Virus record (IMG/VR): IMGVR_UViG_3300032092_003271
Location: 32,920-96,919 of that record
Direction: 5' to 3' (one strand)
Origin: a virus
Length of the DNA stretch: 64,000 bases
A program made the position numbers and the translations under genes. Below the pieces are notes generated by a model. That model was given only the letters and a program-made list of their open reading frames with translations, was not told the origin of the DNA and searched no databases. Below are positions 1,893 to 62,046 of the stretch, in pieces (position 1 is the stretch's first letter; every line of letters begins with the position of its first letter).

Positions 1893-1893
1893 T

Positions 1894-2496: not shown

Positions 2497-2514
2497 TGTA
2501 TTAATTATTGTGAT

Positions 2515-3803: not shown

Positions 3804-3806
3804 CTT

Positions 3807-4610: not shown

Positions 4611-4613
4611 AAG

Positions 4614-5624: not shown

Positions 5625-5625
5625 A

Positions 5626-6102: not shown

Positions 6103-6104
6103 AA

Positions 6105-6893: not shown

Positions 6894-6898
6894 TTTTG

Positions 6899-7708: not shown

Positions 7709-7710
7709 TA

Positions 7711-8442: not shown

Positions 8443-8446
8443 ATTA

Positions 8447-11676: not shown

Positions 11677-11677
11677 A

Positions 11678-12511: not shown

Positions 12512-12521
12512 AATTCTATAA

Positions 12522-14307: not shown

Positions 14308-14309
14308 AA

Positions 14310-15521: not shown

Positions 15522-15570
15522 AAATTTCTTTTGTAGAAATCTAATAATTTTAAACAAAATAATCAATAAT

Positions 15571-16244: not shown

Positions 16245-16643
16245 TTATGTTATATTTTCGTTTCCAAATACTGCGTTAATTATCATTCTTTCCATACTCC
16301 TGTCACCTGTAGGATTATATCCAGGACGAGGAGTGTCAAATACTTCTTGAGTTGGTCTAATGAATTCCATTTTATCCACTCTAAAAAATCTCCAACTAGG
16401 AAGAGGTTTTTTTCCTAAATAAGCTCTATGTGATGATCCTTCTCTATCCCAAGCTCTTAATACGGGATTACCCCTCTTACTATAACCGTAGGCCACGGGT
16501 TCAATAACCCTTAACCCCTTACCTCCAGGTTCGTCACCGTTATAATAAATAACACATACTTTTTTATTTCTTATAGCATCAGTTATTTGATCAGCTGTTG
16601 CTACCTCTAAAATAAGTTTATTTAATGTGTTGTAAAGTTTCAT
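16245..16643 (-). CDS. Small WYL-like domain protein
   Basis: The 132-residue protein contains a WYL-like core: KVCVIYYNG followed by LRVIEPVAYGYSKRGNPVLRAWDREG, and later WRFFRVDKMEFIRPT. In WYL domains the corresponding strands read I-x-Y, R-x-I-x-P and R-x-F-R-x-D-R-I, and the domain binds ligands or nucleic acid in many bacterial regulators. Here it stands alone without a helix-turn-helix, so a direct DNA-binding regulator is not evident. The start overlaps the upstream gene's stop by 1 base. Function is unknown. Confidence 0.55.
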   Translation of the reverse strand: MKLYNTLNKLILEVATADQITDAIRNKKVCVIYYNGDEPGGKGLRVIEPVAYGYSKRGNPVLRAWDREGSSHRAYLGKKPLPSWRFFRVDKMEFIRPTQEVFDTPRPGYNPTGDRSMERMIINAVFGNENIT

Positions 16644-32354: not shown

Positions 32355-35147
32355 TTACCTATTATCAATATATAAATTTACTTCACTATAATACTCAATA
32401 AAGTGATCGTTCCATAGATCCCACTTTATATCAATACCATCAACTGAAAATACTTGATGGTTTGTAAATTCCTTTAAATATAAATCTCTAAACTTTCTAA
32501 ATTTGTTTTTGGTTTCTTTATTATGAAGATGCCACTCACCTGAGATTTTTTTAACATTGTTTTTAATCCAATTAAAGTTTTCTTCCGTAAAGATATTATA
32601 TTCACCACCTTCAGAATCTGTTTTAAGAAAATCAATTTTAGTAATACCATGTTCTTTAATTAAAGAATCAAATCTAACTGAATCCATTTGTGTTTGTACA
32701 CCAAGTTCTGCAGTAAACATATTACCCGTGTTTACAACCCCATCAGTGTCGGTAATTCCTTTATTAATGTGAACTACAAAATCTTTGTTTGTGTTTTTAA
32801 CTAAGTATGGGAACTCCTCATCACAAGGTTCAATAGAATAAATTACCGAAGGTTTTTTGTTTAATATAGAATATGTGAATGGACCAATACTTGCACCAAT
32901 GTCCATAACAACATCACCTTCTTCTACGGTAAAAAACTTCTCATAAATTCGTTCCTCAAAGATTTCTTTATTAATTGCCCATCTAAACCAATCATTAGAT
33001 TTACCCCAATCAAAATCAATTCTATCCCCAAGTAGTAAGTCAATTTTATCTATGACCATTTGTGATGTTATATTTTTGGTGCACTCAAATTGACGACTTG
33101 TGTTTTTATGTAGTGGACACCAATACCAATCACCAGCATCAAATTTTTCTTTATTAAAACATCCGTGACATACGTTCTCATTAATCACTCGATGAACTCC
33201 TGTTAACATCTCAGCGTTTTTTTCACTAAATCCTGAAATCAAAATTAAAGGTAATCCTGTAGACCATGCCAACCAAGATAATCCTGAACCTAAACCAATG
33301 AAGAATTCACAAGTTGCAAGATCATCAATTACTTCTTGAATTGATCCACCCTTAAATTTAGTTGCTCCATTTGGATTTTTGTTACCCATATATCCACTAT
33401 CTTCTTTTGAATATATCATAACTTCGTATCCTTTGTCTGTTAGATACTTAACCACTTCTTCCCAACCCAAAAGGTTGTTCCAATATTTTGATTGTGCCGT
33501 TGAATGGACCCCAATACCAATTTTCTTTTTCTTTGGTACCTTAGGTATTTTTAATTTTGGTTTCACTTCATTATAAGGTAACCCTAAAATATCAGACGCA
33601 GTTTGTTGTAATGGTATGTGTCTAAAATCATTTGGGTGTAAACTATAATTAACATTATCACCATCAAAGAACCAACCTATTTTATACAACGCATATAAAT
33701 CGTGTACTGGTTCACCAGGGTTTATAAATTTTATTTGTGGATATTGATCAATAAACAACTCATTCATAAATGTAGAAACAATCAATTCACAATTATGTTT
33801 TTTTCTAAACTCCTCACATTGTGGGAACCAAGCCATTGTATCGCCTAATGATTTAGATTCAAGTGCAATATAGACTCTTTTCTTGTTAAAGTTTGGTACG
33901 TGTTCGTAAACTAATTCATCTCCATCAAAAACTTTACAAGTAATATTTTTAAAATACTCAACAATAAGTTTTGACCACATATTTGCCTTAATCTCAGATT
34001 GATACATTAAATTATTTAAATCCCAAAACTCGACTCTATATAATTTTTGTGAACTACCTTTAATATCGATAGTTGGGTTACCAACAAAATGAAAACTAAA
34101 ACTTACATTATCTCTTGGTTCTTTATGCGTAATTTCAGTTTCTTCAAATGTTTTTATGTAAAGATTTTTGGTATCTTCGGATCTATAATGTTTATTGATT
34201 ATTTTAACTGACTTATAGATATCGATTAATCTTTTTGTTATTATCGACCAATCAAAATCAATCCTTGTTTCTATGGTTTCATGAAATAACTTACCCCAAT
34301 TTTCAATAACATATTTAAGACCACTAACTACTGACTCGGTGGATCTTCCAATCTTTCTTAATCCACCTATTTTTGGTGTTCCATCGTAAGTACCAACTGT
34401 TGGTAGTCCACATGACATAGCTTCTAATAATGTTAGATTAGGGTGTCCCGCTTCTAAAATCGATGGGTGTGCAAATATGGTATGTGATCGATATAATTCT
34501 CTTATTGATTCTTCGTCAGGGTTTCCATAAACCACATTTAACTTTTTATATTCTAATAAGTCAGGGTTAGCATCAAAAAAGTTTTTGTTGTTATCAGGAC
34601 CCGCAACTGTAATCTCAAGATCTAATTCTTTTGCTGCTTCTATGGCATATCTAAAACCTTTTCTATCAATTGATTGGTTATATGCAAAACCATTATTTGC
34701 AAGACATAATATTTTATGATTGAGCGATCCTTTTGGGTTTTGGTTATCAAAAAAATTAGTATCAACACCATGAGACAAATAAAATAATTTATCAGTTTCA
34801 ACAAAATAATCTACCAAAAATTCCGCATGACAAAATGATATAACAGAATTCTTTATTGCTTTTAAATTTAAATTATAAAGATCCGATTCTCTTCCATATT
34901 CAACAACGTGATGATCATGTAAAGAGAAAATATATGGTATTCCCATTTCATGGGCCTCAATAGCCAAGTTTGCAACATGGATATGAATTATGTCTGAGTT
35001 TCTATCTACTTCACTTAAATATTTAATTTCAGACTCATGACCTTGTTCTATTGAGTTTAAGTGGTAATTCCAAATTACCTTTTCAATTGCCCCCCAACCA
35101 TTTGGTGGTATTGCTATTAAACCTGGTGTTACTTGTGTTATCTTCAT
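32355..35147 (-). CDS. GT4-like + BAHT-like O-heptosyltransferase + FkbM methyltransferase fusion
   Basis: A 930-residue three-part enzyme. Residues 1-320 are a GT-B family 4-like domain (HPSILEAGHPNLTLLEAMSCG near 227-247). Residues about 420-710 match bacterial autotransporter heptosyltransferases (Aah/TibC): VYIALESKSLGDTMAWFP, IGVHSTAQSKYWNN, FIGLGSGLSWLAWS and four cysteines at 660, 663, 677 and 689 in the family's metal-binding finger order (CHGC...WCP...FEC). Residues about 740-930 are an FkbM-type SAM methyltransferase (VMDIGASIGPF, FLKTDSEGGEY). BAHT enzymes transfer heptose to Ser on autotransporter repeats. Here repeat fibres are encoded nearby, so self-fibre glycosylation is proposed (inference). 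It is the last gene of its operon. Confidence 0.82.
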   Translation of the reverse strand: MKITQVTPGLIAIPPNGWGAIEKVIWNYHLNSIEQGHESEIKYLSEVDRNSDIIHIHVANLAIEAHEMGIPYIFSLHDHHVVEYGRESDLYNLNLKAIKNSVISFCHAEFLVDYFVETDKLFYLSHGVDTNFFDNQNPKGSLNHKILCLANNGFAYNQSIDRKGFRYAIEAAKELDLEITVAGPDNNKNFFDANPDLLEYKKLNVVYGNPDEESIRELYRSHTIFAHPSILEAGHPNLTLLEAMSCGLPTVGTYDGTPKIGGLRKIGRSTESVVSGLKYVIENWGKLFHETIETRIDFDWSIITKRLIDIYKSVKIINKHYRSEDTKNLYIKTFEETEITHKEPRDNVSFSFHFVGNPTIDIKGSSQKLYRVEFWDLNNLMYQSEIKANMWSKLIVEYFKNITCKVFDGDELVYEHVPNFNKKRVYIALESKSLGDTMAWFPQCEEFRKKHNCELIVSTFMNELFIDQYPQIKFINPGEPVHDLYALYKIGWFFDGDNVNYSLHPNDFRHIPLQQTASDILGLPYNEVKPKLKIPKVPKKKKIGIGVHSTAQSKYWNNLLGWEEVVKYLTDKGYEVMIYSKEDSGYMGNKNPNGATKFKGGSIQEVIDDLATCEFFIGLGSGLSWLAWSTGLPLILISGFSEKNAEMLTGVHRVINENVCHGCFNKEKFDAGDWYWCPLHKNTSRQFECTKNITSQMVIDKIDLLLGDRIDFDWGKSNDWFRWAINKEIFEERIYEKFFTVEEGDVVMDIGASIGPFTYSILNKKPSVIYSIEPCDEEFPYLVKNTNKDFVVHINKGITDTDGVVNTGNMFTAELGVQTQMDSVRFDSLIKEHGITKIDFLKTDSEGGEYNIFTEENFNWIKNNVKKISGEWHLHNKETKNKFRKFRDLYLKEFTNHQVFSVDGIDIKWDLWNDHFIEYYSEVNLYIDNR

Positions 35148-35148
35148 A

Positions 35149-36870
35149 TTATGTAAATTCTAAATAACCGTATATGTTTTTATTTTCCATTTCATATAAA
35201 AACTCATCAGTTTCTGAGTTATATACTTTTATTTTTTTAATATTCTCCCAATAGATATTATATGACCACGCCCAAGAATAATTAAGGTAATGTATTATCT
35301 CTTCTTCATGATTATCAAATTCTATTATTATTTTTCTAATAACTCTATGGTTATTATAGTTAAATGATAAAATAGCTAAAGAATCTTGATTGTTAACTTT
35401 ATAAATTTTTGTGGTACAACCTTCATAAAACTCAGCTAAAGTTGATTGACTTGTTTCTGTATTCCACATTGTGTTAGGAAAATCTAAATTCATTTGGTCA
35501 CTACCATACTTACTTAAAATTAAATTGGTATTTGAATTCATTAGATTATGGAACATATAAACCTCTACTGATTTAAACTCATCACCAAATCCGTTATTTT
35601 TTAAATATTTTTTATATGATTCTTCACTATCAACTCTATTTATTTTTTCTAAAAAGAAATCAATTTCTGAGAAAAAATAATGAAAAGATATATCTTTTTC
35701 ATTAAAATAAAATAACGATTTTTTATTTTCGTTTTTACATAGTTCAGGAATTGTTTTCATAAATTCATATGATTCATCAGAAAACAAATCATCAACTTCC
35801 ATTCTTTGGAAATGTGTGTACCCAAGTGATTTTGCTAAATCCAAACAATTAAATAGATTACACATTACTGATAACCCATGTCTTTGTAATTCGGGAGTGA
35901 CTTCATGAATAGTAAATCCTTCATACGATTTCCATAGATCAACATAACTTACATTTTCATATTGTTCTTTAAACAATTTGTTTTCACTATTATATAAAAA
36001 ATAATCAACTTGTTCTATAAGATCTTGTGGTGGAACTTTATTAGAAACTAAAAGAATTTTATGATCGTGTTTTTTTAAATTACTAATTGCATCTCTAAGT
36101 TTAGATAATAAAGAATCATTGGATACAAAGCAATCTATAATTGTAATTGTTTTAATGTTTTTATTATAATCTTCTTTTAATCTATTTTTTACTTTGTTAA
36201 TATTTAATTCTTTTTCTTCCTCCGATAATGTTGAGAATATTCCTTTTTTAGAAATTCTGTAGTGACCCCCAAATATGTTTAAAAATTTTATTTTACCTTG
36301 TTTACTCAATTCATAATTAAGTGGCCAATCAACAAAAGGTAATCCCTCAAAATATTTTTTTATTATATTTTTTTTATTCCTAAAAACCCTACCAAAACCA
36401 ACATAATTAGTTTCTAATAAATCTTCAGTTGTAATATCTTCTTTTAGTGAAATTATAAATGCATCTTCTTCTTTAGGTGATGCATAATCTTCGTATAGAT
36501 ATTTTGTCGCAGTAAAAGTCATTACGTAGTCTGTGTTTTCATCTAAAAAATCAACCTGTTTTTGTAATTTATCTTTATCACCAAACAAATCATCACCATC
36601 TAAATACGCAATATATTCTGATTCAGAATTATCTAAAAGTAGTTTTATATTATTAAGAGCACCTAAATTTTCAGACCCATCCAAAATTTTAATTTCAGGG
36701 TATTTTAATTTTAATTCATTTAATTTTTCTTGAGTTTTATCAGTTGAGTTATCATCTCTAATTATAACATCAAAATCAAAATTAGTTTTTTGTTTAAAAA
36801 TTGAGTCGATACAATCAAAGACGTATTGTTCAAAATTATATAATGGTACTATAACTGATAATTTTTTCAT
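35149..36870 (-). CDS. GT2 glycosyltransferase with second GT-A-like domain
   Basis: The N-terminal part of this 573-residue protein is a classical family 2 domain: LSVIVPLYNFEQYV, IIRDDNSTDKTQ and YLDGDDLFGD (D91-x-D93-D94). From about residue 240 a second domain starts with TITIIDCFVSNDSLL and includes HFQRMEVDDLF, which looks like another GT-A acidic site (D-D near a strand). The C-terminal 100 residues are beta-rich and Trp/Tyr-rich, as in carbohydrate-binding ends. It overlaps the NeuD/PglD-like gene by 4 bases. Donors are unknown. Confidence 0.75.
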   Translation of the reverse strand: MKKLSVIVPLYNFEQYVFDCIDSIFKQKTNFDFDVIIRDDNSTDKTQEKLNELKLKYPEIKILDGSENLGALNNIKLLLDNSESEYIAYLDGDDLFGDKDKLQKQVDFLDENTDYVMTFTATKYLYEDYASPKEEDAFIISLKEDITTEDLLETNYVGFGRVFRNKKNIIKKYFEGLPFVDWPLNYELSKQGKIKFLNIFGGHYRISKKGIFSTLSEEEKELNINKVKNRLKEDYNKNIKTITIIDCFVSNDSLLSKLRDAISNLKKHDHKILLVSNKVPPQDLIEQVDYFLYNSENKLFKEQYENVSYVDLWKSYEGFTIHEVTPELQRHGLSVMCNLFNCLDLAKSLGYTHFQRMEVDDLFSDESYEFMKTIPELCKNENKKSLFYFNEKDISFHYFFSEIDFFLEKINRVDSEESYKKYLKNNGFGDEFKSVEVYMFHNLMNSNTNLILSKYGSDQMNLDFPNTMWNTETSQSTLAEFYEGCTTKIYKVNNQDSLAILSFNYNNHRVIRKIIIEFDNHEEEIIHYLNYSWAWSYNIYWENIKKIKVYNSETDEFLYEMENKNIYGYLEFT

Positions 36871-37445
36871 TTATATATTTTTTTTGCAGGGACACCAACG
36901 TATGTTCCAGGTTCGTTTATATTCGATACTACTGCAGCACCCATACCTATTGTGGATAATGAATGGACACTAATTTTTTCTCTAATAGATGAATTATTTC
37001 CCATATAGACACAATCATATATTTTAACATTACCGGAAACTATTGATCCTGGCATCATAGAAAAATAATCACCTATTTCACAATCATGACCAATTTGGTT
37101 TCCCCTATTTAATAATGCGTGTTTACCAATTTTTATGTTTGTTGTTATTATTGAATTTGCTCCAATAAAAGAACCTTCACCAATTTTGACATCATCAGAT
37201 ATGATTGCGGTTGGGTGTATCCATGTGAAATATTTTGTATTTTTTGGTAATCTATTTGCAACGTCAAATCTATTTTTTGGGTCAGCAATTGCTATGATTA
37301 TTTCATATTCTTTGGTGTTAAATTCTGACAATGGTTTTGTGTGTTCATTAACATATTGGTCATCAACAAAACAAGTAATCTTTTCCCCCATCTGAAACAT
37401 AACCTCTCTTGCGTGGCCTCCATAACCTATCAGTGCTTTTTTCAT
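36867..37445 (-). CDS. NeuD/PglD-like sugar acyltransferase
   Basis: The 192-residue protein has the PglD_N Rossmann-like start LIGYGGHAREV (5-15) and a left-handed beta-helix made of hexapeptides (IGEGSFIGANSIITTNIKIGKHA). The catalytic His is placed at H120 in GNQIGHDCEIGD, as in the PglD family, and the end GVPAKKIYK is typical. Such enzymes acetylate amino-sugar nucleotides (PglD on UDP-4-amino-sugars) or sialic acid derivatives. The start of the downstream GT2 gene overlaps its stop. Together with the WlbB-like gene it gives the phage two sugar acyltransferases. Confidence 0.85.
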   Translation of the reverse strand: MKKALIGYGGHAREVMFQMGEKITCFVDDQYVNEHTKPLSEFNTKEYEIIIAIADPKNRFDVANRLPKNTKYFTWIHPTAIISDDVKIGEGSFIGANSIITTNIKIGKHALLNRGNQIGHDCEIGDYFSMMPGSIVSGNVKIYDCVYMGNNSSIREKISVHSLSTIGMGAAVVSNINEPGTYVGVPAKKIYK

Positions 37446-38749
37446 TAGTTAAATCTATATTTTTTAGGATCAAAATAATGTTCATACCAAGATGAAACAT
37501 TTTCATTATAGTAACTCTTCCAAGTATGTGGGGACATACCAATCCACCTTTCTTGTATTGATCTGTTATTATTAGTTTCAATTTTTAATTTAGATAAATT
37601 GGGTAGTGTATTAATGTAAGAATTATTTGCCCACCAAAAATTACCTGAAAAATAATTTTTAAACTCATATTCTAAAAATTTAAAATACTCAACATATAAG
37701 GCTCCTGACAAGTCACAATCTTTATTTTTTAAGTCTTTAAATGGTATACTCCAATTTTCAATACAAAAATATTCTAAACATTCTCTCCATGATTCTATAT
37801 TAGAATCATAAGGTCTTGAGGTTCCTTTTGTGTGAAAATAAAATGTACTTCCACATGGGTTTAAATATGAATAATTTTGTAATTTAATTAAAGTTAAAAA
37901 TTCATCTTCATTTTTTTCATACCAACAAATATTAATTTTCTTATCAATGTCATGGGTTTTAACAATTTTGTTAAACAAATTAAAATCATCATACGATTCT
38001 GTAATAACATTATAAAATATTTGATCAGATCTTTTATATAATCCAAAATCTGATAACTTTTGGAGTTGAGATTGTAATACGTGAACCCAATTATTTTGTA
38101 AAAAATTATGGGAGAATATGGAAACTTTATGATTTTTTATTAAACCAATTCCTCCCCATAAACTATAATGTGTATTTTGTAGTAATTTATGGAATTCATT
38201 ATCTTTTGAGTATTTGTCGTCTTTTTCTTTTGCAAAAAACGTATAATATTCATTATAGTTTTCTATAATTTCGTCCCAAAATTTGTATACAAAAATATCA
38301 TATTCTTTAGTAACATCACTCTCAACAACATCATGAAATGCCAAATAACCGTCATCTGCCAAAAATTGTTTAAATTTATCATAATCATTTTTCACCCCAT
38401 TGTATGAGTGATCCCCGTCAATAAAAATTAAATCAAATTCAACACCTAAATTTTTAATAATTTCAACTGTGTCGTTTGATGTTGAATCCCCAATAATATA
38501 GTTAAAGTTTGGATATGTTTGTTTTATAGTATCAAAATTTTCGTGGTGTTTAATGTCAATTGCAATTACCTTTTCATATAAATGACATAATGCGACTGAA
38601 GTACCACCAAAGTTACTACCAATTTCTAAGGCGTATTTTCTTTTTTTTGTATTACTTAAATGATCTAAAAACAATTTGAATTCTTCGGGTTTTTGTTCAA
38701 TGTTAAATTTTAAACACGAATTCCAAATAGTATTAAAATTATAATTCAT
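37445..38749 (-). CDS. Methyltransf_24-like methyltransferase fused to a glycosyltransferase-like domain
   Basis: A 434-residue fusion. Residues about 30-190 form a class I SAM methyltransferase with ALEIGSNFGGTSVAL, a VIAIDIK strand and IFIDGDHSYNGVKNDY. The C-terminal half (about 205-434) begins VSIFSHNFLQNNWVHVL and contains FYFHTKGTS, a motif I associate with polysaccharide glycosyltransferase-like proteins, then SGNFWWANNSYI. The second domain's function is therefore tentative. It overlaps the next gene by 1 base. The arrangement suggests that sugar transfer is followed by methylation of the glycan by one polypeptide (inference). Confidence 0.7.
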   Translation of the reverse strand: MNYNFNTIWNSCLKFNIEQKPEEFKLFLDHLSNTKKRKYALEIGSNFGGTSVALCHLYEKVIAIDIKHHENFDTIKQTYPNFNYIIGDSTSNDTVEIIKNLGVEFDLIFIDGDHSYNGVKNDYDKFKQFLADDGYLAFHDVVESDVTKEYDIFVYKFWDEIIENYNEYYTFFAKEKDDKYSKDNEFHKLLQNTHYSLWGGIGLIKNHKVSIFSHNFLQNNWVHVLQSQLQKLSDFGLYKRSDQIFYNVITESYDDFNLFNKIVKTHDIDKKINICWYEKNEDEFLTLIKLQNYSYLNPCGSTFYFHTKGTSRPYDSNIESWRECLEYFCIENWSIPFKDLKNKDCDLSGALYVEYFKFLEYEFKNYFSGNFWWANNSYINTLPNLSKLKIETNNNRSIQERWIGMSPHTWKSYYNENVSSWYEHYFDPKKYRFN

Positions 38750-38750
38750 T

Positions 38751-39545
38751 CTAATTACTGTTGTTTAATGAGTAGGAGCTTTTACTTGAGTCCCAAGCTA
38801 AATTTATAATGTGAAAATTTTTATGACATAAACTTTTATATTTTTTTGACCATCTAATGGCAAACTCTAATTCAGTTCTCATTTCATTTGTGTCGTAATC
38901 GGTTGAAAATTCACCAATACTTAAAAATCTTTTGGCGTGGTTAACACCAGGTCTTAATGAATAACTAGGCCAATTTGTATACATCATCCAAAGAGTTGGG
39001 ATCATTGTTTGTGTTGCCGAAACCTCATCTAAAAATAAATGATCATTTATTGGTCTATTTGGATCATAATACCATTCCCAATAATCTCCAATAGTTTTAG
39101 GTTGTATTTCGGGTGGAAAATTTTTATATGACTGAGAAAACCCAACATAACCATATTCTTCATGGTTTTCTAAAAGGTCTATGGTTTCTTTAATATTAAA
39201 ATGATTCACAAAAAGATAATCATCCTCCAACATAAAAAAATAATCGGTCTCTGTGTCAATTAGTTTTTTTCTCATTTCATTTAAAATTCTTGAGTGTCTA
39301 TACCCATCCTCAAAAGAATTTTTATAAAAATGTGTCACTATTATATTTTTATTTGGAAACTTATCCTGTAATAGATGTTCCATATTTATTTTGTCCATTT
39401 CAGATGACGAGTCATCAAAAAATATAATATTGTCAATAATCTCCAAATCCTTACAAAATGTGACAAAACCACGAAGAGTCATTTGTAATAATTCAAATCT
39501 TTTTGATGACGTTATTGTTAAAGAAATTTTTTTGTTATTGTACAT
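38751..39545 (-). CDS. GT-A (GT2-like) glycosyltransferase
   Basis: The start at 39545 is preferred because it lies 1 base beyond the upstream stop, the usual spacing here; an ATG seven codons earlier would overlap. The 264-residue protein begins with ISLTITSSKRFELL and carries FFDDSSSE, then FFMLEDDYLFVNHF, a metal-binding acidic motif typical of family 2-type enzymes. A YVGFSQSYKNFP loop and conserved Trp residues follow. Donor and acceptor are not predictable. Confidence 0.7.
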   Translation of the reverse strand: MYNNKKISLTITSSKRFELLQMTLRGFVTFCKDLEIIDNIIFFDDSSSEMDKINMEHLLQDKFPNKNIIVTHFYKNSFEDGYRHSRILNEMRKKLIDTETDYFFMLEDDYLFVNHFNIKETIDLLENHEEYGYVGFSQSYKNFPPEIQPKTIGDYWEWYYDPNRPINDHLFLDEVSATQTMIPTLWMMYTNWPSYSLRPGVNHAKRFLSIGEFSTDYDTNEMRTELEFAIRWSKKYKSLCHKNFHIINLAWDSSKSSYSLNNSN

Positions 39546-39546
39546 A

Positions 39547-42144
39547 TTATTGTTTGTATACTTCAAATTTAGATAAGTCAGGATAAGGTAATTCTAAATC
39601 CTCATTATGTTTTGGCATTCCGTCTACTTTATAAAATTGGTTCATAAGAAGTAAACCTCTTGATGCTATTTCTGGCATCATATAAAAATTCCAACCCAAC
39701 ATGTCAAAGTCATCTTCATGATACGAACATTCGTTTCTTCCCGAATATCTCGCTCGTTTAAACCATTTGTATGCCTCATAATCGTCAGTAATAATTGCAC
39801 CACCTTTACCAAGTTTTAAATGTTTGTATGGTCCTGTAAATGACAAACACATATGTGTATTTGGAATGTACATGTCTGTTGTAAATCTTAACGCACTATC
39901 CCATACTCTTGTTGGGTATAATTGATATGCGCCTTTTAATGTTAAACTATTAACTGATTCAAATTCAACCTTTCCCCCTGCATGTATAATCTCACAAGGA
40001 ACTGAAGGGTATGTACGTGATGGAATTCTTATAGTTTGACCTTTTATGTTTTCATACATTAAAGCCAAAAACAAAGCGTTACTTTGGTTATCTACAGTAA
40101 CTGCATATGGGGCTCCTGTGTAATCACAAAGAACTTGTTCAAAATCTTTAGTTACTTGATAAGTTGATTTCCCAAGTGATCCAGGTCTTTTAAATCTTTC
40201 ATTTTTTGGTTTTGCAAAAATAACACCATGTTCAACTGACTCATCAGATCTTATTTGTTTTCCCATTTCAAACACTATAATTTTATATTCAAAATCATTT
40301 CGTTTTAATTTCTCAATTATTGGTGTAATTTCATTGTTATAATTTCCATGAAACTCAACCATAAATCTATCAACTAATTTTATTTGTTCATCAGTCACAG
40401 ATTCAAAGAAAGGATATTCACCACCCTCAATATCACATTTTAATAATGATATTCTTTCATAATTGTTATCTTTTAAAATATCATCTAAAGTTATTGTATC
40501 ACACTCAATAAGATTATTTAATTGACCGTAGTTAGGATCATCAGTTCCAAAATAATTTGACCCAATAGTTGTGTTCTCCATTGAGAATCTAAATGGAATT
40601 TTTGTATGTTCTTTATAAATTGGATTCATGTAGATCACAGATCTTTCATTATCATCGTCCAACAAAGTTTCAATACTATCCCTTAGGTAAGGATTTGCTT
40701 CTACTAATATTACTTTCTTTGCATTAATTGAATACATGTATTTTGCAAATAACCCAACATTGGCACCAATATCTATAACTGTATTCAAATTATCTAAATC
40801 TAAACCACTAAAACATCTGTCAATAAAAAACTCGTGATAATTAACATAGTTACAATCAAATGGTTTAAAATTGAATGATGGGATATTTGGTTTTACATCA
40901 TTAACAACCAATTCTTTTGAACCTAATAATTCATTGTTTAAATTATAAAACTCAATTCTAAATCCTCTGAAATTTTTCATTCCTTCAAATTTCATAACAT
41001 GGGTTGGAATTGGGATAATAAAATAAGATAATGGTTCTATAATATTTAAATTGAACCAATATAGTGGTGCGTTTGATGTCATACATCTTATGGTAATGTT
41101 CAGGTTTATTTTTTCTGAATAACCATAATTTAATATGATTTTATTTTCGATACCAACCCAACTAACATCAAACATATTTCCTACGTTTGATATACCTAAA
41201 GTGTTTAATAGTATTTGTATGTCTTTATTAATGTCTCCTGTCATAAATTTAATATTTTCATCGTTATTATACTTACCACAATAAACGTCCAAATTAAACA
41301 TCATCATTGGTAATTCGTATTTGATTGCTTCTTTAATTGCAATCGGGTTTAGTTCTTTGTTAAATCTGTCTCCTTTTGATGGGAATAAAAATAAATCAGA
41401 TGCTTGTAAAAAAGTATCAACATCTGATCTTTCACCCCAAACCACACAGTTATCTGGTTTGTCTTTCATTAAGGGCTCCCAATAATGTCTGAAGTTGTCG
41501 GCTTGATTTCCAATAAAGTGAAATAATATTTTTTCATCTTTTAATTGTTTTGCCATCTCAAAGACATAACCTTGATTTTTTCTTTCAGTAAATAGACCAA
41601 CAATCACAACATGTTTCCATTCAGGATCCAACATAAATTGTTCTTGAGCCCATTGTTTATCCGGTTTTACAATGTCAATTGGATATTCAATAATTTCGTA
41701 AGGTACATCAAACATTGAGTATCTAAATGCGTTAAATGGACTTACAAAAATAAATTTATCGGGAAACCATCTTTTGTTTGTTACAGGAATACTTGAATCG
41801 TGAGTCGTTTCAAATAGTTTGTATGTTCTTTCTTTAATAAATAATTTCTCATTAATTTCTTCAGGTATAAAATGTTCACAAAATTCTTCCAAACAAACGA
41901 TGTCTGGTTGAAATCCATGGATCAAATCAAATATTTTATTTTTATCTTCCCCTAAAACAAATAAATTTTCAGGTCCAATAAGATCTTTAATTCTATTTTT
42001 TTGAACAACAAAGGCGTCTCCATGCCAACTCCACTCAACACATTTGATTATATAATCATCTTTTAATAATTCTATTTTATTTACCAATACTTGCGGTAAC
42101 CCTCCTGTGGATAGATGAGGTGCGACAAATAAGATCTTTTTCAT
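39547..42144 (-). CDS. GT4-like + FkbM methyltransferase + DegT-like aminotransferase fusion
   Basis: An 865-residue three-part protein. Residues 1-340 are GT-B (FVAPHLSTGGLPQVL, VVIVGLFTERKNQGY, FLFPSKGDRFNKE). About 435-640 is an FkbM methyltransferase (VIDIGANVGLFAKY, LLKCDIEGGEYPFF). About 650-865 resembles the first two-thirds of DegT/DnrJ/EryC1 sugar aminotransferases: AVTVDNQSNALFLAL, RIPSRTYPSVPCEIIHAGG, VWDSAL, a candidate PLP lysine K774 in SFTGPYKHLKLGKGG, and LGWNFYMMPEIASRG. It lacks the family's C-terminal portion and the usual GEGG is GKGG. It could supply the transamination step for a 3-amino sugar, or be a binding domain (inference). It heads the minus-strand operon. Confidence 0.78.
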   Translation of the reverse strand: MKKILFVAPHLSTGGLPQVLVNKIELLKDDYIIKCVEWSWHGDAFVVQKNRIKDLIGPENLFVLGEDKNKIFDLIHGFQPDIVCLEEFCEHFIPEEINEKLFIKERTYKLFETTHDSSIPVTNKRWFPDKFIFVSPFNAFRYSMFDVPYEIIEYPIDIVKPDKQWAQEQFMLDPEWKHVVIVGLFTERKNQGYVFEMAKQLKDEKILFHFIGNQADNFRHYWEPLMKDKPDNCVVWGERSDVDTFLQASDLFLFPSKGDRFNKELNPIAIKEAIKYELPMMMFNLDVYCGKYNNDENIKFMTGDINKDIQILLNTLGISNVGNMFDVSWVGIENKIILNYGYSEKINLNITIRCMTSNAPLYWFNLNIIEPLSYFIIPIPTHVMKFEGMKNFRGFRIEFYNLNNELLGSKELVVNDVKPNIPSFNFKPFDCNYVNYHEFFIDRCFSGLDLDNLNTVIDIGANVGLFAKYMYSINAKKVILVEANPYLRDSIETLLDDDNERSVIYMNPIYKEHTKIPFRFSMENTTIGSNYFGTDDPNYGQLNNLIECDTITLDDILKDNNYERISLLKCDIEGGEYPFFESVTDEQIKLVDRFMVEFHGNYNNEITPIIEKLKRNDFEYKIIVFEMGKQIRSDESVEHGVIFAKPKNERFKRPGSLGKSTYQVTKDFEQVLCDYTGAPYAVTVDNQSNALFLALMYENIKGQTIRIPSRTYPSVPCEIIHAGGKVEFESVNSLTLKGAYQLYPTRVWDSALRFTTDMYIPNTHMCLSFTGPYKHLKLGKGGAIITDDYEAYKWFKRARYSGRNECSYHEDDFDMLGWNFYMMPEIASRGLLLMNQFYKVDGMPKHNEDLELPYPDLSKFEVYKQ

Positions 42145-46543: not shown

Positions 46544-48409
46544 ATGCCAGTTTATAATAGATTAACGGATAGACAACAGGTTTCCGCGGTAACCTTAAAC
46601 GATATCATTCACGTAGTTGTTACAGGAGATACTTCTCAAAGCCCTCAGGGTTCTTCATATTTTGCCCCATTAAGTTATATACAAGCAATCTTGAGTGGTG
46701 CTAGTGGTACACAAGGTACTTCAGGTACATCAGGTACGAGGGGTAGTTCAGGATCTAGTGGTAGTTCAGGTACATCAGGTACGAGGGGTTCATCAGGAAC
46801 ATCAGGTTCTAGTGGTTCTAGTGGTACATCGGGTACGACAGGATCTAGCGGTAGTAGTGGATCATCAGGTAGTAGTGGTACAAGTGGGACTAGCGGTTCA
46901 TCGGGTTCAAGTGGAACTAGCGGATCTAATGGATCTTCAGGTACTTCAGGAACTAGAGGTTCTTCAGGTACTTCGGGATCAAGTGGTACAACCGGATCTT
47001 CAGGTAGTTCAGGCGTATCTTTTGGTACATCAGGTACAAGTGGTTTATCAGGAAACGATTCTTCAAATAGTGGTAGGTGGAGATATGTAGGAGTAGGTAA
47101 TAACCCCTCACCAGGACTTTTTGAGACGGATAATACAACAATATCTTCAATAGCCTTTGTCTACATAAATACACAGGATGAAAACGGTTCAGATTATACT
47201 AGATGGTTTTTAGGGGTAGATACTATACAAGACCTTGGTAACACTGTCTATTTACAAATCACACAAGTAGGTTCTAATAATATTATTGGTATCTGGACAG
47301 TTAGATCCATTACTTCATCAGGTAGTGTTTACGAGTTTGAAGTTGATAATCCAGCACTTGTTGCAGATGGTACTATAACAGATACTTGCACAATATCATG
47401 GGTATTTAATGGACTAAATGGTGAAACAGGATCAAGTGGAATATCCGGATCTTCAGGATCAAGTGGTAGTTCAGGTACTAGAGGTTCATCAGGTAGTTCA
47501 GGATCAAGTGGAATATCCGGATCTTCAGGATCAAGTGGTAGTTCAGGTACTAGAGGTTCATCAGGTAGTTCAGGATCAAGTGGAATATCCGGATCTTCAG
47601 GATCAAGTGGTACTAGTGGTGTAAATGGTACTGAGGGATCTAACGGTAGTAGTGGATCATCAGGTAGTTCAGGGTCTTCAGGTTCAAGTGGATCATCAGG
47701 AACATCCCCTTTACCCTCAGAAGTTTATACAGTAGAAAATACGGGTAACACTAAGTTTTATGTTACTTTTGTTGATTCAAATAACTTAGTTGCTGCACCT
47801 GAAAGTGTTTATACAAATACGGGTATAAGTTACAATCCAAGTACAGATATTTTAGAACTCATAACAGGATATCGAAGTGGTGATGGAACAGTTTCGGCCC
47901 CACCTTATAGTTTTATTGCAGATACTAATACGGGAATATATAGGATTGGTACCGATAATTTAGGTTTTGCAACAAACGGTACTAGACGAATGTCTATTGA
48001 TAGTACCGGTAGAATTTTAATGGGTAATGGTGATGAATCTTCAGGATCAAACTTTATAATTCCTTTAGGTGGGTACGCGGCAACATCTAATGCAACTCCA
48101 GCAACACTTATAACATTAGCAACAGACACTGATGGTGTGTATACTGTAGAGGCGTTTGTTGCGGGGGCCACAGTAACAGGAAGTAATGCGATCGGTGGAA
48201 TTATAAGCGCAACTTTTTTAAATAACGGAGGATCTCTTAGTCTTATCGGATCGGTACAAGGATCGGTACAAGAAAACTATGCGGGATCACCGACCTTCAC
48301 ACTTCTTGCGTCAGGAACTAATATAATATTACAAGTCACAGGAGTTGCGTCGACCACTATAAATTGGTTTGGTAAAATTAAATATATTACGGGATCTAGA
48401 GCCATTTAA
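46544..48409 (+). CDS. Collagen-like tail fibre with Gly-X-Ser repeats (second copy)
   Basis: A 621-residue fibre. A 50-residue N-terminal anchor (PVYNRLTDRQQVSAVTLNDIIHVVVTGD) leads into a Gly-X-Ser block, then the NDSSNSGRW globular module (about 169-288) also found in the 1005-residue fibre, then a second Gly-X-Ser block including a 72-base perfect tandem repeat. The C-terminal tip contains ADTNTGIYRIGTDNLGFATNGTRRMSIDS, a widespread phage fibre-tip sequence. The gene is followed by a GT60-like glycosyltransferase gene. Ser and Thr in the triplets are candidate glycosylation sites (inference). Confidence 0.82.
   Translation: MPVYNRLTDRQQVSAVTLNDIIHVVVTGDTSQSPQGSSYFAPLSYIQAILSGASGTQGTSGTSGTRGSSGSSGSSGTSGTRGSSGTSGSSGSSGTSGTTGSSGSSGSSGSSGTSGTSGSSGSSGTSGSNGSSGTSGTRGSSGTSGSSGTTGSSGSSGVSFGTSGTSGLSGNDSSNSGRWRYVGVGNNPSPGLFETDNTTISSIAFVYINTQDENGSDYTRWFLGVDTIQDLGNTVYLQITQVGSNNIIGIWTVRSITSSGSVYEFEVDNPALVADGTITDTCTISWVFNGLNGETGSSGISGSSGSSGSSGTRGSSGSSGSSGISGSSGSSGSSGTRGSSGSSGSSGISGSSGSSGTSGVNGTEGSNGSSGSSGSSGSSGSSGSSGTSPLPSEVYTVENTGNTKFYVTFVDSNNLVAAPESVYTNTGISYNPSTDILELITGYRSGDGTVSAPPYSFIADTNTGIYRIGTDNLGFATNGTRRMSIDSTGRILMGNGDESSGSNFIIPLGGYAATSNATPATLITLATDTDGVYTVEAFVAGATVTGSNAIGGIISATFLNNGGSLSLIGSVQGSVQENYAGSPTFTLLASGTNIILQVTGVASTTINWFGKIKYITGSRAI
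46692..47050 (+). repeat. Collagen-like Gly-X-Ser block
   Basis: About 39 Gly-X-Ser-type triplets in frame, ending at the shared NDSSNSGRW module. Confidence 0.85.
47429..47612 (+). repeat. 72-bp perfect tandem repeat, about 2.5 copies
   Basis: Units start at 47429, 47501 and 47573; the third is truncated after about 40 bases. Each unit encodes 24 residues (eight collagen-like triplets), so copy number changes keep the frame and change fibre length. Confidence 0.9.
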
Positions 48410-56885: not shown

Positions 56886-58013
56886 TTAAATTACATATAT
56901 TTGACGAGGCATGGCTCTAAACTTAAGAGTTTTGTTTAAGTTTTCAGCTAACAAAGCCTCTCTTTCCATAACTTTTTCAGGACGAAGTCTTGTTAATCTT
57001 CCTTCAGGACCGATTAATTCCTCGGCTAATTTAGTCTTTTCATCTTTACCTTCAGTACCTAATGTTGCGTAATCCATAGTTAAGTCGCCATCAGGAGTCT
57101 TTAAGTTACCACTAAATTTACCACGAACTCTTGCCAAAGTTTCTTTACAGTAAGCAATAAACCATCTACGAACCCAAACTTGAGCAGGATTATTTAGTTT
57201 GTACCAACTTATTTTATTAAATGGTACATCGGAAGGTAAAAGAACAATATCAGGATTATCCGCCAAACACTTATCTCTATCACCTTGTGAAGTATCATAA
57301 TACCAATACCAAACTTGACCTTTTGCTAATTCCGCATTACCGAAGTCAAATTTACCACCGGGAGTGTTTAAAAGATGTAATGCTTTTTTACCACCAGGAA
57401 GTGCTGTAATATAGTAAGTTAAATCACCCGCAAATATTCTTCTTTGGATGTTAACTTCTTGCATTCTTAATAATGTATCGAAGGCTGGTGTTAAATAATA
57501 ACTTCCCGCCATATTACCAATTTGTGCAAGACCTCCACCACCACCAAGTCCTGTTCCATTACCAATACCCGCAAAACCACCTAAACCAAACATTAAGTTG
57601 TTTAATGTTGATGGAGTAAACCATAATACTTCATTTATCTCACGACCCGCAGGTATCTCATAAATTTGTTGGTTAGGAACTAACTGTATGTAATCTTTTT
57701 TAATTTCCCAATCACCACCCGCTTGTAAACCAACAATTTTAGAGTATGCGTAAGTATACCTTGTTTCGAAGTCTAAACTTTTAGTGATAAAGGCTCTTGA
57801 TAAAGATTGGGTATCTAAATTTAAATTATTTAATGTGGTCCATTGAGAATCAATTAACCAATCTTGGACATACTGAGAATAATCGTCAATTGAATATTCC
57901 AATAATGTATCCATCATTTCATCTTCCAATTCTACAGATCTTAAAGGTGCACCTAACAAGTGTCTAACTTTTTGATAGAATTGACTTCTTTCTGGTTCGT
58001 CGATTATTGCCAT
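56886..58013 (-). CDS. T4 gp13-like neck protein
   Basis: A 375-residue protein with the layout of T4-like gp13 head-completion proteins: an N-terminal helix pair ending in LLEYSIDDYSQYVQDW, a beta region with IQLVPNQQIYEIPAG and an EVLWF strand, and a C-terminal helical region WVRRWFIAYCKETLARVRGKFSGNLKTPDG. The last resembles the gp13 segment in which the neck protein binds its partner. A Gly-rich insert (FGLGGFAGIGNGTGLGGGGG) is unusual. It probably joins the head to the tail together with the gp14- and gp15-like proteins. The call is by pattern, not alignment. Confidence 0.62.
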   Translation of the reverse strand: MAIIDEPERSQFYQKVRHLLGAPLRSVELEDEMMDTLLEYSIDDYSQYVQDWLIDSQWTTLNNLNLDTQSLSRAFITKSLDFETRYTYAYSKIVGLQAGGDWEIKKDYIQLVPNQQIYEIPAGREINEVLWFTPSTLNNLMFGLGGFAGIGNGTGLGGGGGLAQIGNMAGSYYLTPAFDTLLRMQEVNIQRRIFAGDLTYYITALPGGKKALHLLNTPGGKFDFGNAELAKGQVWYWYYDTSQGDRDKCLADNPDIVLLPSDVPFNKISWYKLNNPAQVWVRRWFIAYCKETLARVRGKFSGNLKTPDGDLTMDYATLGTEGKDEKTKLAEELIGPEGRLTRLRPEKVMEREALLAENLNKTLKFRAMPRQIYVI

Positions 58014-58054: not shown

Positions 58055-60250
58055 TTAGATAGAACAAACGATCTTCTCTCTATCTTTTGATTTGACATTC
58101 AAAGTGACGGATTCTAAAGTATTTTTGTCTCTGAAGAAATAACCATTAATCGAACTGAATTCAGGTTTTATTCTGAATCTAATTGATAACCTTTTTTCAT
58201 CACATCCTCGTTGACCTTTATTGGACCAATACAGATCAATATATTTGATAGGTACTATTAAATCACCCTCATAAATTATACCGGCCATTTGACTTCTAAC
58301 TTTATCCAAGTACTCCTGTGCAGAAGATTTACTATTTAACCAAGTAAATAATTTATCTATCAACTCATTATACAATTTTATGTAGATTGGTTTTTCATTT
58401 GATAATGAGGTTTGTTTAAAAATAGAAAAGAACTCGGACAAATAGCTATCAATAAACGGGTCCATTTTTTTAACCTCAAAGAATGAACCGACAGGAAATA
58501 TAACATCACCATTCTCATCTTTTAAATCTTGTTTAGTTACTAAATCCGCCTTTATATAATAACTCCCTTTTTTAAAGGATTTAGATAAACAAGAGGTTAT
58601 TTGAAAAAAAGTATAGTTTAAAGTTTCAGTACCCGAATGGATCTTTCGTAACAAATCAATCAACGTTTCTTTCGCATCATCAGAACACTTATAATCTAAT
58701 TGTAATTTTGTAAGATTCTTTTCAAAATATTCTCCTGAAAATCTATCTTCATATTTACTATGTTCTTTCTGTCTAGCATATGCCAACAAACCCTCAATAT
58801 CATTTGGTATTGTTGTTGTGTACCTTTGTTTGTTCAATATTTTTTTTACTTGATCGTTATCATAGTTCTTATCAACAATAAAGTTAGATACTAAATCTAA
58901 AAAGTTTACGGTTCTACTTTTGTCTTGGAGTGATAACTGAATTATTACAGGAAATGTACCAACATTTTTTTTACCAAAAAATTGATCTAATATAAACATT
59001 GATTGTTCCAACTCGTTGACCAAATATTGATCTTCTAAACCATCTCTAAAATTTTTTAATTGACAATATGGTGATCCTTCAACTTTTGATTGTTTACATA
59101 AATAATCTATCTTGGAGTGTCTTCTTAGAGCAATTTCATTTACTTCTTGAGATTCGTTAAGTTTTTTTTTATCGGTACGACCTACAAATAAATCATTAAC
59201 AAATTCCCAATTAACGACATCCCAAAACTTTTGGATATATTCATCACGTTTGTTTTGATATTTCAAGTAGTAAGCATGTTCCCACACATCAAGACCTAAC
59301 AAAGGATAACCACCCTTTTTAACTATATTCATTAATGGATTATCTTGATTTGGTGTAGACATAATTTTTAAATTACCGTCACTGTTAAGATACAACCAAG
59401 CCCATCCTGAACCAAAACGATCCTGAGCGGCTTTGTTGAACTCATCCTTCATTTTTTTAATATTACCAAAATCTTTTTTGATTTTTTTTAAAATCTCACC
59501 ACTTGGTAGTTGTTTTTTAGGGGACAACATTTTCCAAAATAATGCGTGGTTGAAAGCTCCTCCAGCGTTATTCCTAACTTTATTATCAAATTTACTGATA
59601 GTTTTTACGATTTCTTCTAACTCTAAATCACCATCAATATTTTTGATTGCTTTATTTAATTTATCAACATATCCTTTGTAGTGTTTATTGTAATGGATAT
59701 TCATAGTTTTTGAATCTATAAATCTATTCAAAGAGGAATATGAGTAAGGTAACTTTTCAATACCAATTGATTTCATTTCAGAAACCAAATTTTTTTTGAT
59801 TAGTTGTTTTTCGTTTAATAAAATTTGTTCAGATAAAAGACTTACTTTTCCCTCGATACCTTTATGTTCGTACATTAGTTCCTCAAGTTCAGGATATTTT
59901 TTTTCAAATTTTTTGACAATCTGTCCTGCAAAGGCATTTGCTTCGTCTTCATTAATACCACCGATATTAGGTCCGTGTTCTCTACCAAGAATTGTCATTT
60001 GATATTCATGAACCCATTCATGAGCCAATGTTCTCATGATGTCACGATTTAATCTTCCCTTAGCAAGAACTTTAATTAGGTGATCACCTCTTCTACTACC
60101 TGTAGACATCTCACCTTTCCTACCATTTAAAAACATAATTTTTAAATCATTCTTAAGTGGGTATTCATCTTGTAGTAAGGAAATAAACTTTTTAACAAAG
60201 TCTTTTCGATTTTTAATATCGGGATTTTCGTATTTGATAGAAACTTTCAT
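58055..60250 (-). CDS. Zincin protease domain + Fe/Mn superoxide dismutase domain + unknown C-terminal region
   Basis: A 731-residue fusion. Residues about 30-125 hold LAHEWVHEYQ (HEWVH, 77-81) and EDEANAFAG (E103), a zinc-metallopeptidase pattern like ImmA/IrrE-type zincins. Residues about 165-355 are a complete Fe/Mn superoxide dismutase: LPYSYSSLNRFIDSKTM, NNAGGAFNHALFW, FGSGWAWL and GLDVWEHAYYLKYQN. All four metal ligands are present (H186, H235, D321, H325), as well as H190 and Y194. The remaining 370 residues are unrecognised. The gene lies between the neck gene and the helicase gene. Function could be a virion- or scaffold-associated protease with a metal or redox domain (inference). 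Confidence 0.85.
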   Translation of the reverse strand: MKVSIKYENPDIKNRKDFVKKFISLLQDEYPLKNDLKIMFLNGRKGEMSTGSRRGDHLIKVLAKGRLNRDIMRTLAHEWVHEYQMTILGREHGPNIGGINEDEANAFAGQIVKKFEKKYPELEELMYEHKGIEGKVSLLSEQILLNEKQLIKKNLVSEMKSIGIEKLPYSYSSLNRFIDSKTMNIHYNKHYKGYVDKLNKAIKNIDGDLELEEIVKTISKFDNKVRNNAGGAFNHALFWKMLSPKKQLPSGEILKKIKKDFGNIKKMKDEFNKAAQDRFGSGWAWLYLNSDGNLKIMSTPNQDNPLMNIVKKGGYPLLGLDVWEHAYYLKYQNKRDEYIQKFWDVVNWEFVNDLFVGRTDKKKLNESQEVNEIALRRHSKIDYLCKQSKVEGSPYCQLKNFRDGLEDQYLVNELEQSMFILDQFFGKKNVGTFPVIIQLSLQDKSRTVNFLDLVSNFIVDKNYDNDQVKKILNKQRYTTTIPNDIEGLLAYARQKEHSKYEDRFSGEYFEKNLTKLQLDYKCSDDAKETLIDLLRKIHSGTETLNYTFFQITSCLSKSFKKGSYYIKADLVTKQDLKDENGDVIFPVGSFFEVKKMDPFIDSYLSEFFSIFKQTSLSNEKPIYIKLYNELIDKLFTWLNSKSSAQEYLDKVRSQMAGIIYEGDLIVPIKYIDLYWSNKGQRGCDEKRLSIRFRIKPEFSSINGYFFRDKNTLESVTLNVKSKDREKIVCSI

Positions 60251-60255
60251 CTTTG

Positions 60256-60262
60256 ATAAATA
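60256..60262 (-). promoter_or_regulatory. TATTTAT motif
   Basis: Minus-strand copy ending 5 bases before the start of the protease-SOD gene; flanking genes are minus strand. Confidence 0.4.
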
Positions 60263-60279: not shown

Positions 60280-62046
60280 TTATCGCCTATTGTTGATTAG
60301 ATTCAATATTTCTTCAACAATGTCACCTGTATTTTCTACAATACCATCACCCATTACGGTTCTAATGATTTCTTTTTTACGATTAAGTATATCATAAATT
60401 GCACCCTCAATAGTGTTTTCAAATAGTGGGTAGTAAACCAATACGTTTGATTTTTGACCATAACGATAAGCTCTATCTTCAGCTTGTGCGTGTTCTGCAG
60501 GAACAAAAGATAAATCATTCATAATCACAGCTTCTGCAGAAGTTAAAGTCAAACCAACACCCGCAGCTTTTAAGTTACCAACAAAAACTTTGATTTTATC
60601 ATCGTTTTGAAATTGATCTACAGCTTGTTGACGCATGGCATTAGAACAACTACCATCAAGGTAAACTGCTTGTTTTGAGAAATGTTGGTATATTGTTTGA
60701 AGGGTGTCAGTAAAGTTTGTGAATATTATAACTTTCTTTCCCTGTTCTATAATGTTTTCAGCAAACTCAATTGTTTGTTTTGTTTTTTCATTTGCAATTA
60801 CTTTTCTAACTTTCATAAGTTTAGAAAACTGAACTGTTAAAGATGACGACTCGTCAGGATTTTTATCGTACCAATCAAAATATTCACCCATTAAATCTTC
60901 GTACTCTTTTGACTTTAATCTCAAATAAACAGGTGTAATGATTTTATCAGGTAAATCTAAAACATCTTCTTTTAATCTTCTAAGAATTTGTTTTGATGTA
61001 CGATCTCTTAATTCCTCTAAATTAGATGCCCCTGTCACATTCCATACTTTTCTTTTACCTGCTGTAAATTGGAATCCTTGACAATACCTAATTGCATAAG
61101 CTTTCCAATTCTGAGCAACAGGACTTTCAATTAGATTTAACAAATTATAATAATTCATTGGTCTAGAAGTCATCGGTGTTCCTGTCAATAACCAAACTCG
61201 TTCTACTTTTTTTGCAAAACTATTAATGATCTTTGTTCTTTGTGCCTGAACATTTGATATCATGTGAGCCTCATCTAAGATCACCAAGTCAAATCCACTT
61301 TGTAATAATAGAGACTCATCTTTTTTCTTTGCATCTGAGTCGTGGAAGTTTTTAAGGATATCATAATTAACGATTACAAAATCATCTTCAGTTGAGAATT
61401 TTTTACCTTCCGCAATAAAAACAGGTCTATCTGAATAATTTGCAATTTCTCTTTGCCAATTTATTTTTAAAGATGCGGGGCAAACAATTAATATTTTTTT
61501 CGCACCTGTCTCTAACGCGGCAATAATAGTTGAGGTTGTTTTACCAAGACCCATGTCATCGGCAAGAATAAATCTTTTAGATCCTGCCAGTTTTTCAATC
61601 GCAATTTTTTGATGATCAAGAGGAGGACGATGAGAATATTTAGAATAATCAACACTAACGGACTGAACGTTATGGGTTTTAATTAATGCAGATTTTGGAA
61701 TCCAAAATTCTGATAGTTTATCCCTTTCAAAAAATTTACCCCAAACATGATAAGACTTTTCTTTTTCAACTAAAAGTTTTTCAATATAAATATGGTCTGG
61801 TACTTGAATCAAATATTTTTCTTCTGCGAATTTTTTAGAGAAGTAAGTGTCAAGCTCAACCCATTTACGTGCAATTTTAGGTGTTGAGTTGTGATATGTT
61901 GTAATATATTCCGATTGACTTCTAGTTGGGTAAAATTTACTAGAGACTTCTTTTTTATGTTTGAGATATAGTATATAATTATTTGCACCACTATAACTTT
62001 CGAGCAACTCTAATGCTTTATGTTCTATCAGTGTTTTTGTTTCCAA
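60280..62046 (-). CDS. SNF2-family DNA helicase/translocase
   Basis: A 588-residue superfamily 2 ATPase. Motif I is ADDMGLGKT (162-170), motif II LDEAH (257-261), motif III LTGTP (287-291), and motif V/VI NLKAAGVGLTLTSAEAVI followed by QAEDRAYRYGQ. This is the SMARCAL1/SNF2 type rather than the UvsW type. The first 130 residues form a beta-rich domain probably contacting DNA. Phage SNF2 helicases are thought to remodel replication forks or recombination intermediates. It starts 57 bases from the divergent neck gene, with a TATTTAT motif between them. Confidence 0.92.
   Translation of the reverse strand: METKTLIEHKALELLESYSGANNYILYLKHKKEVSSKFYPTRSQSEYITTYHNSTPKIARKWVELDTYFSKKFAEEKYLIQVPDHIYIEKLLVEKEKSYHVWGKFFERDKLSEFWIPKSALIKTHNVQSVSVDYSKYSHRPPLDHQKIAIEKLAGSKRFILADDMGLGKTTSTIIAALETGAKKILIVCPASLKINWQREIANYSDRPVFIAEGKKFSTEDDFVIVNYDILKNFHDSDAKKKDESLLLQSGFDLVILDEAHMISNVQAQRTKIINSFAKKVERVWLLTGTPMTSRPMNYYNLLNLIESPVAQNWKAYAIRYCQGFQFTAGKRKVWNVTGASNLEELRDRTSKQILRRLKEDVLDLPDKIITPVYLRLKSKEYEDLMGEYFDWYDKNPDESSSLTVQFSKLMKVRKVIANEKTKQTIEFAENIIEQGKKVIIFTNFTDTLQTIYQHFSKQAVYLDGSCSNAMRQQAVDQFQNDDKIKVFVGNLKAAGVGLTLTSAEAVIMNDLSFVPAEHAQAEDRAYRYGQKSNVLVYYPLFENTIEGAIYDILNRKKEIIRTVMGDGIVENTGDIVEEILNLINNRR

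Follow-up and report, generated by a model that had tools for sequence, protein, structure and literature searches.

A conserved phage protein family joining a zincin-like domain to a complete superoxide dismutase through linkers that resemble prohead-protease sites

Bacterial manganese superoxide dismutases (MnSODs) are stand-alone enzymes; what, then, is the role of an MnSOD that a phage has embedded between two other protein domains? This question is raised by an open reading frame (ORF) at positions 58055-60250, minus strand, of a stretch that comprises the last 64 kb (hereafter the window) of the 96,919-bp IMG/VR viral record IMGVR_UViG_3300032092_003271. The ORF starts with ATG and encodes 731 aa with no internal stop, arranged from the N- to the C-terminus as a zincin-like domain of the HExxH...E type, a complete Mn-type SOD and a C-terminal part without recognised family. 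An initial annotation made from the letters alone had read zincin motifs and an entire SOD in this single frame of 731 residues, and its motifs were confirmed, with the metal ligands at the residues it had named. Judged from its residues, the SOD that is fused to the zincin-like domain in this phage genome is most likely catalytically competent. Comparison of viral sequences indicates that the fusion is no isolated oddity but a family conserved among large aquatic phages of a T4-like lineage. Its three parts are joined by linkers rich in L/I-x-E motifs that look like prohead-protease sites, so that the mature products may be separate proteins and not one fused enzyme.

The SOD domain spans residues 163-355 (59186-59764, minus strand, as are all parts of the ORF given below) and was recognised by Pfam, NCBIfam, phmmer and fold comparison. 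Both Pfam SOD models, which the initial annotation had proposed as a check, exceeded their curated cut-offs: Sod_Fe_N (PF00081) with E 1.6e-21 and 77 bits against 27, and Sod_Fe_C (PF02777) with E 6e-41 and 139 bits against 20.9. A phmmer search matched the MnSOD of Sphingobacterium (6gsc, E 2e-65), and the predicted full-length model contained the SOD fold, as found by Foldseek (about 50% identity to Sphingobacterium MnSOD, E 5e-15) and VIA (Z 17.6 over 185 residues, root-mean-square deviation 4.3). The NCBIfam Mn model scored higher than the Fe model (205 versus 166 bits), each remaining under its cut-off, which is 363 for the SodA equivalog NF008177. In 49 distinct aligned family members the four ligands H186, H235, D321 and H325 were invariant, as were the second-sphere residues Y194 and Q302, together with W285 and E324; Q302 is the Mn-type glutamine of the NQD motif. 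The domain thus resembles bacterial SodA, with Sphingobacterium sp. T2 (PDB 6gsc/5a9g) as the nearest solved structure, in fold, the four ligands, the Mn-type glutamine, the second-sphere tyrosine and about 50% sequence identity. Its ratio of nonsynonymous to synonymous substitution rates (dN/dS) was about 0.01-0.06.

Residues 1-128 (59867-60250) form a zincin-like domain, a minimal gluzincin of the HExxH type, as indicated by the invariant HExxH and E101/E103, by stand-alone homologues and by BFVD matches. The zinc-binding motif HEWVH occupies residues 77-81 (60008-60022), and EDEAN, the first part of EDEANAFAG (residues 101-109), lies at residues 101-105 (59936-59950) and contains the presumed third zinc ligand, E103 or E101. 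H77, E78, H81, E101 and E103 were invariant in the 49 aligned members, so that HExxH is followed by an acidic candidate for the third ligand throughout. No Pfam peptidase model exceeded its cut-off for residues 1-129 (SprT-like, 13.6 bits against 25.6), and the M78 model gave 13.0 bits against 22 for a stand-alone homologue. The M78-like assignment entertained at first fell short of the Pfam gathering score, and we name residues 1-128 zincin-like without filing them under M78.

Stand-alone homologues include gp257 of Synechococcus phage S-SRM01 (132 aa) and 129 related stretches in viral contigs, and in BFVD the zincin region matched phage proteins named 'IrrE N-terminal-like' and SprT-like. 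Like the window's domain, gp257 and the 'IrrE N-terminal-like' phage proteins are minimal zincins of about 130 aa (32% identity over residues 19-168 of the window protein), whereas gp257 lacks an SOD and is encoded between a cytidyltransferase gene and a short hypothetical gene after MazG. The Foldseek and VIA lists for the full model were filled by SODs and barely probed the zincin and the tail. In BFVD the model also matched segments of two other proteins (A0A6J5R4H4 and A0A6J5MCV5), one with an AAA domain and the other a phage protein resembling cytidyltransferases; the zincin may therefore be fused to other enzymes elsewhere.

Relatives are encoded at 224 viral loci in one scan of viral contigs, and two scans of IMG/VR contigs yielded 104 distinct fusion proteins. 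In the loci examined, the helicase gene was consistently followed by the fusion gene, the neck gene and a gene for 115 aa, with small genes sometimes inserted. In the window the conserved neighbours are an SNF2-type helicase gene upstream (60280-62046, minus strand; Pfam, PHROG 62) and a neck or head-tail adaptor gene downstream (56886-58013, minus strand; PHROG 211, E 4.5e-9), which is where the initial annotation had put the ORF. Chance and a misassembled or chimeric contig, the latter named there as a possible refutation, are ruled out because separate contigs encode 104 distinct fusion proteins in the same gene neighbourhood. For the pairs computed, most comparisons of the zincin, the SOD and the tail gave a dN/dS of about 0.01-0.1, with a maximum of 0.24 in one close pair with small counts. 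Conservation, synteny and low dN/dS argue for an old, selected protein and against an assembly error. The architecture had been called unfamiliar. This holds for the open literature, in which no paper on a zincin-SOD fusion was found, but not for the databases, since the conserved family includes a 501-aa relative in UniProt/BFVD. This entry, A0A6J5L953, 'superoxide dismutase [uncultured Caudovirales phage]', aligned over 477 columns with 35% identity and is most likely the same fusion; it differs from the window protein in its shorter tail, is named for the SOD only, and its architecture is uncommented in any paper found. A collection of bacterial and archaeal genomes, scanned with only two SOD patterns so that absence is not proven, contained three SOD-only loci and no fusion. 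In locus L051 (8000-10145) the fusion gene is divided into two ORFs of 190 and 506 aa by a frameshift or a sequencing error.

The part that follows the SOD is variable. The initial annotation had left it as 370 unrecognised residues, and these indeed matched no Pfam family (the best PHROG match, E 0.0024, is an unannotated family), but they represent one of at least four exchangeable modules, and the tail is absent in 36 of the 104 distinct members, which end about 5-11 residues past the SOD, typically with ...TKK(E)N. Four kinds, A (window), B, C and D, were distinguished by the sequence after the SOD; automatic clustering gave three groups, with D joined to B. The type A module of the window (residues 376-731, 58058-59125), analysed by profile and fold searches, was predicted alone with a model confidence (pLDDT) of 85, and its fold gave no significant match (best Foldseek E 0.28; best VIA Z 4.8, to designed helical proteins). 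We treat type A as a module without a recognised fold and do not call it a new fold. Types B, C and D had no Pfam match either. By eye, modules B and C had suggested PD-(D/E)XK nucleases (GQD...FQVKP; FExLIxGLLGG...DVI...SCK); Pfam gave no support, and this is not claimed.

Linker 1 (residues 129-162, 59765-59866) was modelled with low pLDDT and carries conserved L/I-x-E-type sites at E141, E147 and E158, found in 39, 45 and 44 of 49 members, respectively; at E158 the window itself has V in place of L/I (VSE). Linker 2 (residues 356-375, 59126-59185) is tag-like and contains KKKLNESQEVNEI, with a site at E366 that is conserved in 32 of 38 members. L/I-x-E occurred 9.8 times per 100 aa in linker 1 and 7.3 times in linker 2, compared to 0.8 in the zincin, 0.6 in the SOD and 1.2 in the tail, and 72% and 53% of the glutamates in linkers 1 and 2 belonged to such a motif versus 8-15% elsewhere. 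The first 28 residues of the tail contained L/I-x-E in all 68 distinct tailed members, with two or more copies in 54, compared to 19% of random 28-aa stretches of the two domains. The 36 untailed members end before the motif, their stubs being so short that its absence is expected. As a control for amphipathic helices, the position of glutamate was profiled relative to L/I. Enrichment peaked at +2 in linker 2 (3.2-fold) and in N-terminal tags encoded by G001 (2.6-fold), a 272-kb record that contains locus L047.

These tags connect linker 2 to free proteins. In L222, linker 2 (KKKNIITENQSDKINERVRSTVEKFG) is the N-terminal tag of adjacent free paralogues, MKIIITENQSDKINHRIKSTVEKFG. In the L080 group (L080, L208, L210 and L211) the fused type D module comes after KKPLNES, and the free paralogues next door start with MKIIISESQYKLIKEN or MRIIITENQYKLIKEN and continue with the same VSLKEKLLGLIKKVGF. 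At the level of sequence, linker 2 thus equals (L222) or replaces (L080 group) the N-terminal tag of free paralogues. A free type-B relative in G001 begins with MNSLHEDIRRIKKLMNLLEGE. Tags of this kind are common to 55 non-paralogous G001 proteins, grouped by tag similarity so that their common motif is descriptive. Tag pairs scoring at least 50 numbered 47 for residues 1-24 and 0 for residues 31-54 or 61-84. The tag types in G001 (for example L101 and L102), seen also in G003 and G006, include MKRIVRLTESDLARIVRRVINEE, MKIIITEDQYxxL, MNLQEQIRRILKEE and MKELIRHILKEE, and two tagged proteins are encoded near the major capsid protein (MCP) gene in G001, G006 and G000. By analogy to T4, the tags are possibly capsid-targeting sequences (CTSs). 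Tandem arrays of tagged paralogues of about 150 aa, one copy of which is SOD-fused, were also observed beside the fusion gene in L080 (7490-10972), L210 (3045-6963) and L222 (5606-6962).

In T4, the head maturation protease gp21 cleaves after L/I-X-E (PMC9026906), and internal proteins, including diverse anti-restriction proteins, owe their packing to a short targeting sequence at the N-terminus, which gp21 cleaves off (PMC9026906, PMC3012670, PMC5694885). In the giant phages phiKZ and SPN3US, x-x-E motifs mark the sites after which the head-maturation protease processes many proteins of the inner head (PMC10052503, PMC9026906). The window's record likewise encodes a gp21-like head maturation protease (PHROG 207, E 6.7e-43), so that a T4-type protease and L/I-x-E cleavage-type sites occur in the same genome. 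The N-terminus of its capsid protein reads ...ENQASYLINEATSDG, with a site SYLINE/ATSDG that we take to be equivalent to SFLTE/A of T4. Counterparts of this capsid protein in three related records had gp23 Pfam matches, and tblastn matched T4-type capsid genes, the MCP relatives including Flavobacterium (immuto) and Microcystis phages. The fusion therefore shares with T4 internal proteins (IPI-III, Alt) a short motif ending in L/I-x-E on unrelated cargo, in a phage group that has a gp21-like protease and a gp23-like capsid. It differs in that the tag lies inside a polyprotein, between domains, and in that an antioxidant enzyme is part of the cargo; no homology to the T4 internal proteins was shown. 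The phiKZ and SPN3US proteins mostly lose N-terminal propeptides, whereas here enzyme domains would be separated from one another.

A further link to head genes is found upstream. The heptamer TATTTAT, a presumptive late-gene signal, lies at 60256-60262 (minus strand), 12 bp before the ATG, and recurs in 99 of the 104 members at a distance of 11-14 bp from the start, which is exactly 12 bp in 93; this conservation is the stronger result, bearing in mind that close relatives are not independent. It also precedes the terminase, protease, scaffold, neck and other structural-region genes and 35 of the 55 tagged genes (tagged versus untagged in G001, p 2.5e-6), with a spacing of about 11-12 or 20-22 bp before structural and tagged gene starts in G000, G001, G003 and G006. 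In G000 it was found before 0 of 40 sugar-block genes versus 23 of 60 others (p 1e-6), a test that is not independent of the discovery, which was made by inspecting upstream regions of the same genome. The T4-type upstream motif TATAAATA was enriched less than TATTTAT. Altogether, this suggests that TATTTAT is a late-expression signal.

Because of the linker motifs, the linker/tag equivalence, the gp21-like protease with its MCP site and the common upstream signal, we favour a reading, with a probability of roughly 0.5, in which the fusion is a late-expressed virion cargo polyprotein that is cut during head maturation and ejected with the DNA. The initial annotation had offered antioxidant, scaffold and virion component as options; linkers, linker/tag equivalence and upstream signal favour the last, as cargo. 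Synthesised late, at the time of the head proteins, the fusion would be packed intact into the prohead, where the gp21-like protease would cut after L/I-x-E in both linkers. Cleavage would release the zincin-like part (about residues 1-147), an MnSOD of 208 aa (about 159-366), which is a normal size for this enzyme, and the exchangeable third effector (about 367-731). Upon infection these parts would be delivered to the host along with the DNA; the SOD would remove superoxide early and thereby spare phage DNA and enzymes, and the zincin-like part and the third module would act on host targets, possibly related to defence. PADLOC returned nothing usable. The fusion, its conservation, the intact active-site residues, the exchangeable module, the density of linker motifs, the correspondence of linker and tag in L222 and the L080 group, and the shared upstream signal are properties of the sequences; that the protein is packaged, cut and ejected, that it is enzymatically active and that it acts on host targets is what we infer.

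Several observations weigh against virion cargo. The fusion has no N-terminal CTS; its N-terminus is the zincin-like domain and the tag-like segments are internal, so that the linkers between the domains would have to direct packaging. Within linker 1, glutamate was enriched alike at +2, +3 and -4; the +2 signal there is non-specific and makes a weaker case, and this linker may be a mere amphipathic helix. At P1', the position after the putative cuts, the linkers have M, K, Q, N or S, whereas the MCP site has A. Moreover, the CTS role of the tags is argued by analogy, TATTTAT as a late promoter is presumptive, and a helicase gene lies directly upstream.

This last point, that the fusion gene comes after a helicase gene, speaks for an uncut antioxidant, the whole protein staying in the infected cell with the SOD as an auxiliary metabolic enzyme and the zincin and tail as partners or regulators. 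Such a role would agree with the complete and conserved Mn-type active site and with the stand-alone SODs annotated in other large phages, e.g. PA5oct-like phages, but it leaves the L/I-x-E linkers and their equivalence to tags unexplained, and the upstream signal is common to structural, not metabolic, genes; we consider it rather unlikely. The neck gene adjoining the fusion in the loci examined, and the signal shared with structural genes, could instead point to an uncleaved virion structural protein whose SOD dimer serves as a neck or head module, catalysis being incidental. Full conservation of ligands and second-sphere residues, a tail that is freely exchanged or missing, unlike a fixed structural part, and linkers of low model confidence that look cleavable make this improbable. 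We assign similarly poor odds to processing by the N-terminal HExxH domain itself, which in place of the gp21-like protease would cut the linkers or other head proteins. Its HExxH and E103 are invariant and it lies close to the linkers, yet the motif fits gp21 specificity and a gp21-like protease is already present in the phage, cyanophages have stand-alone zincins without SOD, and proteins without a zincin bear the same motif on their tags. Finally, an SOD fold kept as an inactive binding scaffold is very improbable given the invariant ligands, Y194, Q302, W285 and E324 and the low dN/dS of the SOD, even if a more diverged 385-aa relative, aligning over most of its length with 22% identity, suggests that decay may occur elsewhere.

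Virion cargo may extend beyond this protein. We tentatively propose, at somewhat less than even odds, a lineage-wide system of cargo loading in which dozens of unrelated proteins would be sent to the capsid by a few N-terminal L/I-x-E tags, at which the gp21-like protease would subsequently cut. Genes linked by way of a tag would yield segmenting polyproteins, with zincin-SOD-module as their conserved representative, and SOD, protease and an interchangeable effector would be injected together. Flavobacterium phage immuto, one of the nearest cultured relatives by MCP, had no reported match to the zincin-SOD fusion, and three stretches (150 of 160 kb) contained no convincing tags. If these readings are correct, virions would be pre-loaded with an antioxidant enzyme acting from the first moment of infection, and oxidative chemistry would be a candidate element of the conflict between aquatic bacteria and their phages. 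The principle of the T4 internal proteins, which concerns a few proteins, would then hold for a modular cargo system across the lineage, whose recognisable tags would allow injected effectors to be listed from sequence. The SOD fold, the zincin-like domain and L/I-x-E maturation were already known, and databases already contained a relative of the fusion, named as a plain SOD; what is new is that the architecture forms a conserved modular family, that its linkers are tag-like and that a set of tags runs through the lineage.

Elsewhere in the window, translations inspected by eye revealed big blocks of glycosyltransferase-, nucleotide-sugar- and methyltransferase-like genes at 8-15566 and 32355-42144. 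Long collagen-like SGTSGSSG repeats occur in proteins encoded at 21663-24680 and 46544-48409, which are perhaps tail-associated. A 132-aa protein encoded at 16245-16643 (minus strand) has the tag-like start MKLYNTLNKLILEVA, and its remainder appears WYL-domain-like by eye.
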